Positions 7,398 through 10,912 of a stretch of DNA of 25,629 nucleotides are shown piece by piece. The DNA lies in the IMG/VR virus record IMGVR_UViG_3300021197_000960, positions 1 to 25,629 of that record. One strand, 5' to 3'. Position 1 is the stretch's first letter. Each line of letters begins with the position of its first letter. The notes under the pieces were generated by a model. That model did no database searches, was not told the DNA's origin, and was given only the letters and a program-made list of their open reading frames with translations. The position numbers were made by a program, and so were the translations under genes. This stretch comes from a virus.

Positions 7398-9268
7398 GAA
7401 TTTTACACATCGACTTCGAAACATCCTCGAAGGCTAATATCAAAGACACTGGCACATATCGTTACTGTGCCGATCCAACCACAGAAGTTATCTGTGTCGG
7501 CTGGGCTTTCGGTGATGATCCTGTCCAGGTCTCAGAGAGGCTACCTAATGAAGTCCTCGAACATATCGAGTCCGGTGGGCTAGTTTACGCACACAATGCC
7601 TCGATGGAAGAACAGATCCTATATCACATCTACGGCATTGAAAACGTCAATATGCGATGTACCTCAGCAGTAGCGAGCTACCACGCACTCCCGGCAAGCC
7701 TCGAAGCAGTCGCGGAACATCTTGGCCTCGATGTCAAGAAAGACAAAGAAGGCTCTAAAGTCCTTCGTAAGCATTTCAAGACTCCAGTGAGCGAGATACC
7801 TGCTTCTGACCTCGAAACTATCAAGGCCTACTGTAGGCAGGATGTCGAAGTTGAGCGGGCCATTCATCAAAGGTTAGGCGAATTGCCAGCCAACGAATTG
7901 AAGGTATGGCAACTAGACCAGAAGATGAACCGTAAAGGCTGGAAAGTCGATACCGCATTAGCTCGCTCTTGCATCAAAGCAGTCGAAGAAGCCAAGGCTA
8001 CCATCGAAACTGACCTACAGCGATTAACAGGGGGAGTGGCAGAGAAGCCTACTCAGGTCAAGCGAATCATCACCTGGCTCGAATCTCGCGGGATTGAGAC
8101 AGCGAATCTTACGAAGGATACTGTGGTTGATTTGCTTGAACAGGATCTACCGGCTGAAGTCCGCGAAGTGTTGCTTTGTAGGCAGCGAGGTGGTGGAAGT
8201 GCTACAGGCAAATATGTCAAGGCTCTAGCTATGGCTGATCCTAATGATAGTAAGGTTCGAGGGAACTTGAAGTATCATGGAGCAACGACCGGCAGATGGG
8301 CCGGTAGTGGCCTCCAAGTCCAAAACTTACCTCGAGGCAATGTTAGCGACACGGACACACTGGCTGATATGTTCCTCCGTGGTAACATCGGCAAGGTTAA
8401 GGAAGTCGCGGGCAATGTCTACGATGGAGCTAAGTCTGCTGTGAGGCCACTTCTGACGGCATCTAGCCCAGATAAGCGATTGATCGTCGCAGATTACTCA
8501 GCTATCGAATGTCGAGTATTGGCTTGGTTAGCCGGTCAGGAGGATCTAGTGCAAGAGATTCGAGATGGTGTTGATACTTACTGTAGCTTCGCCAGCAAGG
8601 TATTCAAGAAGACTATCACGAAGGAGGATAAGAAAGAGCGGGCAGTTGGCAAGGTGGCTATTTTGGGCTTATCTTACGGAATGGGGGCCGCAAAGTTTCA
8701 GGATACTTTGAAATCCATGGCAGGTTTGCAAGTTAACCTAAACTTCGCCCAATCTGTTGTCGATACTTACCGTAGCACCTACGCCCACATTCGAAACTAT
8801 TGGTACGACTTGGAGCGTAACGCTATCGAAGCTGTCAAGTATGGGGAAAGCAAAGATGGGAAATGGTATCGCGAAGGTAAAACTCTGCACCACATCCTTT
8901 CTAGCGGTCGAATCATACGATACCAAAATGTCTCGTTAATGGCTGGAAAGTTCGATAACGAGGCGATTAAGTATCGGCGGCCCCTAGGCAAGAATATGGT
9001 TTGGAGCGACACTTACGGTGGAAAGCTAACAGAGAACATCTGCCAAGCTACAGCCCGTTGCGTCATGTCGGATTCTATGCTAAGATTGGACGAAGCAGGG
9101 ATTGACTTGATCGCTACAGTTCACGATGAAGTGATAGCAGAAGCCCCGGCTAATGAAGCCGACTTGACTCTCGAACGTATGGAGTCTATTATGAGTGAAG
9201 AGAAGGCGTGGAGTGGTGGTCTACCGTTGGCTACTGAAGGTTTTGTATCTTATCGGTTTAAAAAGTAA
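7394..9268 (+). CDS. Family A DNA polymerase with 3'-5' exonuclease
   Basis: ATG 7394 overlaps the previous stop. The 624-residue protein starts with a DEDD-type proofreading domain: HIDFET (D7, E9), AHNASMEEQIL, and YCRQDVEVERA with the late acidic residue. It then has the polymerase core: RWAGSGLQVQNLPRG, motif A VADYSAIECRVLAWLAG near residue 367, a motif B helix (KERAVGKVAILGLSYGMGA) and motif C TVHDEVI near 577. There is no 5'-3' exonuclease domain. It is the phage replicative polymerase working with the PrimPol-helicase, DUF2800 nuclease and DUF2815 protein upstream. In the exonuclease second motif, Glu stands where Asp is often found. The TAA stop overlaps the next gene's leader. Confidence 0.95.
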   Translation: MRILHIDFETSSKANIKDTGTYRYCADPTTEVICVGWAFGDDPVQVSERLPNEVLEHIESGGLVYAHNASMEEQILYHIYGIENVNMRCTSAVASYHALPASLEAVAEHLGLDVKKDKEGSKVLRKHFKTPVSEIPASDLETIKAYCRQDVEVERAIHQRLGELPANELKVWQLDQKMNRKGWKVDTALARSCIKAVEEAKATIETDLQRLTGGVAEKPTQVKRIITWLESRGIETANLTKDTVVDLLEQDLPAEVREVLLCRQRGGGSATGKYVKALAMADPNDSKVRGNLKYHGATTGRWAGSGLQVQNLPRGNVSDTDTLADMFLRGNIGKVKEVAGNVYDGAKSAVRPLLTASSPDKRLIVADYSAIECRVLAWLAGQEDLVQEIRDGVDTYCSFASKVFKKTITKEDKKERAVGKVAILGLSYGMGAAKFQDTLKSMAGLQVNLNFAQSVVDTYRSTYAHIRNYWYDLERNAIEAVKYGESKDGKWYREGKTLHHILSSGRIIRYQNVSLMAGKFDNEAIKYRRPLGKNMVWSDTYGGKLTENICQATARCVMSDSMLRLDEAGIDLIATVHDEVIAEAPANEADLTLERMESIMSEEKAWSGGLPLATEGFVSYRFKK

Positions 9269-9279
9269 TGGAGGAAGTT

Positions 9280-10152
9280 ATGAGTAAGAAGTACGATACG
9301 ATCTATCTTGATTGGGATGGTGTGCTGTGGAACTTTAAGCAGGCGTTCTGCGATTGGTTCGAGATTTTAGACCGCGACTCCGACAAGTGGGAGTTCTACG
9401 AGGAGTTCGGCATGTCTGCCTCTAAGTTCCAGGAGTTACTAAGTGAGCTACCGCAGGAGTTCTGGCAACAGGAGAAATACCTCATACCTCATGCCCACAA
9501 GCTAGTCGAGTGGGCTAAGGCTAACGCTGATAACGTGTTCGTGCTTACTGTAGCTCCTGAATGGTCTACAGCACAGGGCAAGCAAAACCTAGCCCGTAAG
9601 CACTTTAACTTAGGTGTCTACACTGTCGCCAAGGCAGAAGAGAAGGTTGAGTTTGCTACGGATGGTGCTTTACTCATCGACGACAAACCTAGCTCAGTTG
9701 TTAGGTTTGCCAATGAGACCAGCTTATCGGGTGGCTACATCTGGCCTGCCGAGTATAATGATGGACTCGACGAGTCGTGGTACTTCGACGTATCGCAGCT
9801 TGAGAAGGCTACTGTTGACTCGAAGCCAGTGTTAGATTACGATGCTATGGATGAGGCGAAGCGGCGTAAGATGACTCCACTCTATTCGGGGTTACTTGCC
9901 TACTTCCCTGATGCACTGGCTATGGTGGCTCAGAATAGCGTTATCGGACAGCACCAGCACGGTACACTAGACGAGCCGTTACACTGGGATCGTTCGAAGT
10001 CATCGGATGACCCTGACGCTATGTTACGCCATATGGCTGACCATAGCCGAAACCCCTATGATACTGATGGGAGATTACATCTAGGTAAAGTAGCCTGGAG
10101 AGCTTTGGCAATGTTACAGAAGTTTATTGAGGAGGAGAATCAGTGTGGGTAA
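9280..10152 (+). CDS. HAD 5'-nucleotidase-like domain fused to DUF5664 dATP/dGTP-diphosphohydrolase-like domain
   Basis: ATG 9280 has GGAGGA (9270-9275) upstream and is preferred to ATG 9268. Residues 1-185 form a HAD-type phosphatase: YLDWDGVLW with the DxD pair D11/D13, VLTVAP around residue 90, a lysine region, and ALLIDDKPSSV, like deoxyribonucleotidases. After a short linker, about residues 200-290 match DUF5664 (PF18909, named dATP/dGTP diphosphohydrolase N-terminal): LLAYFPDALAMVA, HWDRSKSSDDPDAMLRHMAD and HLGKVAWRALAML. The first activity could produce dNMP from dNTP and the second dephosphorylate it. It lies between polymerase and methyltransferase, overlapping the latter by 8 nt. 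Domain calls good; coupled reaction inferred. Confidence 0.75.
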   Translation: MSKKYDTIYLDWDGVLWNFKQAFCDWFEILDRDSDKWEFYEEFGMSASKFQELLSELPQEFWQQEKYLIPHAHKLVEWAKANADNVFVLTVAPEWSTAQGKQNLARKHFNLGVYTVAKAEEKVEFATDGALLIDDKPSSVVRFANETSLSGGYIWPAEYNDGLDESWYFDVSQLEKATVDSKPVLDYDAMDEAKRRKMTPLYSGLLAYFPDALAMVAQNSVIGQHQHGTLDEPLHWDRSKSSDDPDAMLRHMADHSRNPYDTDGRLHLGKVAWRALAMLQKFIEEENQCG

Positions 10153-10847
10153 TACCAAAGAACTTACAGCTATCAGCTTTTGTGCCGGATACGGTGGAAT
10201 CGAAAGAGGACTTGAGCTTGCTGGAGTCAGAATTAGAGTCGTCGCTTATGTGGAGATCGAAGCCTTCGCGATTGCGAACCTGGTTGCTAAGATGGAATCG
10301 GGAGAGTTGGCTCCGGCTCCTATTTACACGGATCTTAAAACCTTCCCAGCAAGCTACTTTCGCGGAAAAGTGGACATCTTCACTGGAGGATATCCCTGTC
10401 AGCCCTTCAGCTTATCAGGTAAAGGACTCGCCCAAGACGACCCCCGGCACTTGTGGCCGTACCTCCTCGAACACATACGAGCAATTAGACCTGTTCGATG
10501 CCTCTGGGAGAACGTCTACGGCCACGTCCATCGAGGACTCGAAGAAGTGTTGTCCGACATGGAAGCAGAGGGCTACCGAACAGAATTCGGCATATTCTCA
10601 GCGGCTGAAGTCGGTTCAGTCCATGAAAGGAAAAGAGTCTTTATCTTGGCCGACTCCAACGGCACACATAGCGAAAGAAGGGGGTTACCCAGCGGAATAC
10701 AATCGGAACAGCCCATCAATAACGGCTGTGATGTTACAGCGGGAGGGATTGCCTCACAGTTCTGGGAAGATGAACCCGGAATATCTCGAATGGATGATGG
10801 GAGTCCAGATTGGTTGGACAGAGTTAGGATGTTGGGGAACGGAGTAG
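10143..10847 (+). CDS. Possible overprinted protein encoded inside the methyltransferase gene, 234 aa
   Basis: A GTG at 10143, two bases before the methyltransferase GTG and behind the same GGAGGAG, opens a different frame that stays open for 234 codons. The product contains YEQLDLFDASGRTSTATS, LSWPTPTAHIAKEGGYPAEY and MNPEYLEWMMG followed by QIGWTEL. From memory, this motif order recurs in phage proteins encoded beside C5 methyltransferases and usually left as hypothetical. The alternative is a shadow frame: ILADSNG in the methyltransferase frame yields WPTPTA when shifted, so apparent conservation could be secondary. No conserved catalytic motif is seen. Confidence 0.4.
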   Translation: MWVIPKNLQLSAFVPDTVESKEDLSLLESELESSLMWRSKPSRLRTWLLRWNRESWLRLLFTRILKPSQQATFAEKWTSSLEDIPVSPSAYQVKDSPKTTPGTCGRTSSNTYEQLDLFDASGRTSTATSIEDSKKCCPTWKQRATEQNSAYSQRLKSVQSMKGKESLSWPTPTAHIAKEGGYPAEYNRNSPSITAVMLQREGLPHSSGKMNPEYLEWMMGVQIGWTELGCWGTE

Positions 10848-10912
10848 TTCCTCAAACAGCGTGTAGAGCTTGGCAAGTATTAACTAGGAGGTTTAGTAAT
10901 GAGCAAGGGTGA
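10145..10912 (+). CDS. DNA cytosine-C5 methyltransferase
   Basis: The start is GTG 10145, with GGAGGAG (10131-10137) 7 nt upstream. The 255-residue enzyme has the ordered C5 motifs: I ISFCAGYGGIERGLE (11-24), IV GGYPCQPFS with catalytic C85, VI ENV (122-124), VIII RKRVFILA, a short recognition region, and IX/X RMLGNGVVPQTACRAW. It is compact, so the target-recognition part is small. It would methylate phage DNA, probably to evade host restriction; no cognate restriction enzyme is present. Its 5' end overlaps the HAD fusion gene, and a second long frame is open inside it (10143-10847). Confidence 0.92.
   Translation: MGNTKELTAISFCAGYGGIERGLELAGVRIRVVAYVEIEAFAIANLVAKMESGELAPAPIYTDLKTFPASYFRGKVDIFTGGYPCQPFSLSGKGLAQDDPRHLWPYLLEHIRAIRPVRCLWENVYGHVHRGLEEVLSDMEAEGYRTEFGIFSAAEVGSVHERKRVFILADSNGTHSERRGLPSGIQSEQPINNGCDVTAGGIASQFWEDEPGISRMDDGSPDWLDRVRMLGNGVVPQTACRAWQVLTRRFSNEQG

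Follow-up and report, generated by a model that had tools for sequence, protein, structure and literature searches.

Two almost fully overlapping phage reading frames as probable subunits of one split C5-cytosine methyltransferase

C5-cytosine methyltransferases (C5-MTases) encoded by phages generally protect phage DNA from restriction. That such an enzyme can be divided between two polypeptides is already known from M.EcoHK31I, in which, as Lee, Kam and Shaw reportedly described in 1995, a small polypeptide of 176 aa is read from an alternative frame within the coding sequence of the 309-aa large one. Motifs I-VIII and X of M.EcoHK31I are located in the large subunit, where the predicted target-recognition domain (TRD) is also placed, while motif IX is found on the small subunit (PMC3404938). 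M.AquI is likewise a natural two-subunit C5-MTase, the small subunit of which holds motifs IX and X (PMC3404938). Among phages, Streptococcus phage MM1 possesses orf13 and orf14, annotated as the alpha and beta subunits of a C5 methyltransferase, with the beta product belonging to phrog_16143. Paenibacillus phage Lily encodes gp63 ('g62 internal gene'), annotated without a proposed function. A phage methylase carrying an HNH-encoding insertion placed out of frame (PMC11855218) is a different case from the alpha/beta overlap considered here. While the split-enzyme principle is thus established, the extent and form that it takes here are not well described in searchable literature, in which no paper on this phage-wide overlap was found; what is new is how nearly complete the overlap is, how the starts are nested and how widely the pair occurs, together with a second set of genes, for ordinary phage methyltransferases of the MM1 type, in which a +1 frame is under selection but has no motif IX.

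Layout of the locus and comparison with described systems

The locus lies on the plus strand of a stretch of 25,629 nucleotides from IMG/VR record IMGVR_UViG_3300021197_000960, referred to below as the window. The first frame, alpha (10145-10912, +), encodes a C5-cytosine methyltransferase of 255 aa with motifs I-VIII and X, as judged from Pfam PF00145, AlphaFold and Foldseek. Its true start is the GTG at 10145, the TTG at 10127 given in the list of open reading frames being a mere upstream in-frame codon. The second frame, beta (10143-10847, +), is +1 relative to the methyltransferase, opens with GTG (ATG in most relatives), and specifies a 234-aa member of phrog_1008. A preliminary description of this DNA had reported a stop-free frame of 234 codons inside the methyltransferase, initiated by a GTG on a shared ribosome site and terminating 65 bp before the enzyme does (10847 vs 10912), all of which was confirmed. 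The two frames share 703 of the 768 nt of alpha (>90%).

The start codons are nested, beta's GTG at 10143 preceding alpha's GTG at 10145, and both stand 7-9 bases after a single ribosome-binding site, AGGAGGAG (10130-10137, +), located inside the end of the upstream gene. This upstream gene (9268-10152, +), the C-terminal part of which matches PF18909, the dATP/dGTP diphosphohydrolase N-terminal domain, ends with a TAA at 10150-10152 that runs across the start region of both alpha and beta. Because the stop overlaps both starts, termination of the upstream gene is likely to be translationally coupled to initiation of the pair. The window start reads GTGTGG, while members of the close clade mostly carry ATGTGG (beta ATG, alpha GTG, offset -2). 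Within a wider set, beta opens at the start of alpha in 72 of 187 genes, often at an offset of +4, and inside alpha in the other 115, a median of 166 nt in. In one relative (L043, ~2478-2486) the start is ATGTAG, with a stop right behind the usual beta start, and beta may begin internally there.

When compared by described motif layout, the window alpha resembles the large subunit of M.EcoHK31I in having motifs I-VIII and X without IX, and the pair also resembles the overlap reported for that enzyme in that its second polypeptide is encoded in an overlapping frame, here +1. Several features set the two apart: in the window, 92% of alpha is covered by beta, whose start codon lies 2 nt ahead of that of alpha behind a common ribosome site, the pair is phage-encoded with no endonuclease gene seen adjoining it in the window, and no TRD is recognisable in alpha, unlike in the large subunit of M.EcoHK31I. 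The pair differs from M.AquI in that motif X belongs to alpha and not to the small subunit; mycobacteriophage pairs of the gp80/gp79 type are closer to M.AquI than the window pair is. Like the window, MM1 has a selected +1-frame beta over the catalytic region. Unlike the window alpha, that of MM1 forms a complete enzyme in which motifs IX and X are both present, and the MM1 beta, shorter than the window beta, has no IX-like segment. Lily gp63 shares both frame and motifs with the window beta and likewise lies over a C5-MTase, but begins internally. Finally, the name of phrog_1008, 'DNA methyltransferase' (class 'other'), hides that its members are +1-frame products without catalytic motifs.

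Dual coding and selection on both frames

The openness of the +1 frame was compared with expectation in several ways. Synonymous-codon permutation within alpha gave a mean of 5.2 stops in the beta stretch, where none is observed, and roughly 1 in 5000 permutations was free of stops; resampling with phage codon usage gave a mean of 9.2 stops, with 0 of 5000 replicates lacking one. The +2 frame contains 15 stops. Among 80 alpha homologues collected with the enzyme protein alone, blind to the +1 frame, all 80 keep their +1 frame free of stops over a long distance, which reaches 467 codons at the most and is not broken even where insertions extend the enzyme to 493 codons, while their +2 frames usually hold 10-33 stops; the freely appearing stops that were looked for among close homologues are therefore not seen. 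A very long case is provided by phage C75C1 (L002:2001-3380), in which a 459-codon +1 frame with several WxTP modules lies over a 480-aa alpha.

Substitution patterns were examined in pairs that are not independent and at rates calculated without a bootstrap, though the direction was the same in every identity band relative to control genes. At 65-80% amino acid identity, changes silent in alpha and altering beta occur at 0.424 per site vs 0.694 in control genes from the same contigs, and third-position differences in the overlap amount to 0.358 vs 0.538 in same-contig controls; in the single-coded tail of alpha the latter value is 0.602. A synonymous-rate analysis of the kind proposed in the preliminary description thus shows suppression of both measures. 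OLGenie-like dNN/dNS values were not trusted alone, because ordinary genes also reach 0.77-0.88 in the +1 frame, and the comparisons with control genes were used instead. A profile HMM of beta scores +1 translations at a median of 368 bits vs 149 bits for synonymous-permuted genes, with 76 of 76 genes scoring above their own permutations; part of the beta-frame similarity is therefore a shadow of the enzyme, while most of it is not. Taken together, the open homologues, stop depletion and suppression of alpha-silent changes support the long dual-coding pair put forward in the preliminary description, and demonstrate dual coding with selection on both frames.

Among 65 distinct genes of the MM1 type, 64 keep the +1 frame free of stops for 142-209 codons across the catalytic region, and third-position differences, at 75-97% identity, are far fewer in this overlap than towards the 3' end of these genes (0.225 vs 0.472). 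Similarity between MM1-type and window-type beta is only slightly above shadow level, 42 of 64 genes scoring above their own permutations. A selected +1 product without a motif IX role therefore exists in this set, of which L462 (alpha 1501-2658, beta 1652-2077; relatives L464-L541) is an example.

Division of motifs and distribution of the pair

Alpha matches PF00145 with an E-value of 8e-28, but only over profile positions 2-168 of 324. Its catalytic domain contains motifs I-VIII, including PCQ and ENV, which are conserved in the alpha alignment, with motif IV (GGYPCQPFS, bearing the catalytic cysteine) at 10385-10411 (+) and motif VIII (HERKRVFIL) at 10622-10648 (+); motif X (LGNGVVPQ) follows at 10832-10855 (+). 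The small C-terminal domain with motif IX was not found in alpha's own chain, where the Pfam match ends at position 168, and no recognisable target-recognition domain was found; both TRD and motif IX are absent from alpha. Residues 186-231 of its AlphaFold model are of low confidence, and in a Foldseek search the modelled fold matches the large domain of M.HhaI and M.HaeIII (TM ~0.44 of their length).

Beta contains the LSWPTPTA, MNPEYLEWMMG and QIGWTEL strings noted earlier. A single copy of a [W/F/L]xTPxA module occupies 10647-10730 (+); relatives carry 0-7 copies, the W/LPTP module is also present in single-coded beta, and a role for it in target recognition is a guess. At the C-terminal end of beta lies a motif IX-like segment, MNPEYLEWMMGVQIGWTEL (10770-10826, +), delimited by sequence, motif scan and hhalign, the family consensus of which is LNPxWVEWLMGxPxGWT. 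Direct alignment by hhalign of window-type beta, which lacks motif X, with canonical enzymes places it best at motif IX, though not significantly (E 0.53). The putative assignment of this segment to motif IX comes instead from relatives in which the motif is single-coded. In BellusTerra, a mycobacteriophage, and in phages like it, the C-terminal end of beta is single-coded, with a motif IX-like segment followed by GNGVVVQQ; the C-terminal end of BellusTerra gp79 matches canonical phrog_116 (E 6e-9), and hhalign of single-coded betas with canonical enzymes sets IX on IX and X on X (E 5e-4). In L120, L127, L229 and L231, as in L341, L343 and L345, alpha ends after motif VIII and a single-coded beta holds IX and X.

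The window beta matches phrog_1008 at 1.1e-18, as do 62 of 62 relatives. Searches of Pfam, NCBIfam and PADLOC with beta gave no real match, a PDB sequence search with the beta profile returned chance-level matches only, and a stitched alpha-beta-alpha chain matched no better in Pfam. The N-terminal part of beta had no known homologue in the searches run, and the AlphaFold model of beta alone (pTM 0.21) is too poor to be used for a fold search. A selected +1 frame is present even in MM1-type enzymes that have a motif IX of their own, and the N-terminal part of beta therefore probably has some function beyond the provision of motif IX.

A DNA pattern for the C-terminal motif of beta alone, ignoring the enzyme, retrieved at least 239 copies from viral and bacterial contigs, and the family is larger than these. 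In 234 of the 239 copies among the matches listed, the -1 frame across the motif belongs to an alpha; the other five have a motif X tail in the beta frame, one of them (L152) being cut at its left end and the remaining four having an upstream alpha that stops after motif VIII. No stand-alone beta occurs among the 239 listed copies, and among these matches beta is obligately linked to alpha. The suggestion of the preliminary description that the pair is rare does not hold, given at least 239 copies in viral and bacterial contigs, and its suggestion that the motif typifies a separate family encoded beside methyltransferases is not supported, as every listed copy lies on or partly on a C5-methyltransferase. 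By record title, the bacterial hosts of the matches listed include Pseudomonadota, Bacillota, Actinomycetota, Bacteroidota, Planctomycetota, Verrucomicrobiota, Spirochaetota, Chloroflexota and others. Complementary data come from sampled bacterial genomes, in which none of 69 full-length C5-MTases has a strong beta, their +1 frames holding 5-39 stops, and each of the 12 complete enzymes with a truncated Pfam match carries one (E <= 2e-27). Three bacterial full-length enzymes (L352, L442, L445) display unusually long +1 open stretches of 175-184 codons, with weak beta HMM matches (~5e-5) in L352 and L442.

A proposed split enzyme and competing explanations

We consider it probable that the locus encodes one phage C5-cytosine methyltransferase split into two subunits produced from overlapping frames. 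Ribosomes recruited to the one Shine-Dalgarno site would initiate at either of the two nested codons, 2 nt apart, both of which may in addition receive ribosomes re-initiating after the stop of the upstream gene. Alpha would supply the AdoMet-binding and catalytic motifs I-VIII together with motif X, while beta would contribute the missing part of the small domain, ending in the motif IX-like segment, ahead of which a long N-terminal stretch overlaps the coding DNA of the catalytic domain. By analogy with M.EcoHK31I, alpha and beta would most likely assemble into one methyltransferase, presumably marking phage DNA against host restriction as phage C5-MTases do in general.

Other explanations account for parts of the data. 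Beta could be a real, selected, overprinted protein that is not an enzyme subunit, for example a regulator or counter-defence factor, as might be suggested by the ~160-codon +1 frame kept in 64 of 65 MM1-type genes, whose single-chain enzymes contain motif IX themselves, and by an N-terminal part lacking known homologues. Such a role appears improbable, given that motif-bearing beta is found at an alpha in all 239 listed copies, that the partner alpha always lacks the C-terminal part, and that single-coded betas match the canonical C-terminal end. A single chain might also be made by programmed frameshifting from the alpha N-terminus into +1 for the TRD and motif IX and back for motif X, the beta start being incidental. 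The DNA order VIII - TRD/IX - X is indeed preserved, and in the four loci L120, L127, L229 and L231 motif X follows IX in the beta frame; yet two shifts would be required, nested or internal beta starts are conserved, and the +1 frame is also open and selected ahead of motif VIII, in a stretch that a frameshift product could do without, making this explanation very improbable.

The preliminary description had also allowed for a shadow frame, with openness and apparent conservation being by-products of codon bias and of residues conserved in the enzyme, and had correctly observed that ADSNG read one base later becomes WPTPTA (10647-10681). Permuted genes do retain some score with the beta HMM, but real genes exceed them throughout; stop depletion, suppression of alpha-silent changes, the stops in ordinary C5-MTases and the persistence of the motif where it is single-coded likewise argue against a shadow. 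This reading was rejected by the stop, substitution and permuted-HMM tests, and its probability is now negligible.

With respect to the origin of the split enzyme, the earlier proposal that the WPTPT/GWTEL family arose by overprinting probably holds for the N-terminal part of beta, but the C-terminal part, going by relatives in which it is single-coded, matches the enzyme's own motif IX-X end. It is conceivable, though rather doubtful, that the N-terminal domain is a distinct methyltransferase partner that was first overprinted on phage enzymes complete in a single chain, a state to which MM1-type genes would still correspond, and that it subsequently acquired the roles of target recognition and motif IX, alpha then becoming dependent, in a two-step origin of an obligate heterodimer through overlapping genes in phages.

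Long same-strand overlaps in which both products are selected are uncommon, and here two probable subunits of one enzyme have over 90% of their DNA in common, across phages and prophages from a wide range of bacterial phyla, providing a large natural data set on the origin and maintenance of overlapping genes. The arrangement is widespread in these elements and often mis-annotated. Where annotations keep one frame, or label the two alike as 'DNA methylase', half of the enzyme is overlooked, and tests of such an enzyme with cloned alpha by itself would therefore be expected to fail. In Stenotrophomonas phage SOVA965 (L003), the annotated 'DNA-cytosine methyltransferase' at 1926-2426 is the beta frame, and the real enzyme frame at 1724-2449 is left unannotated.
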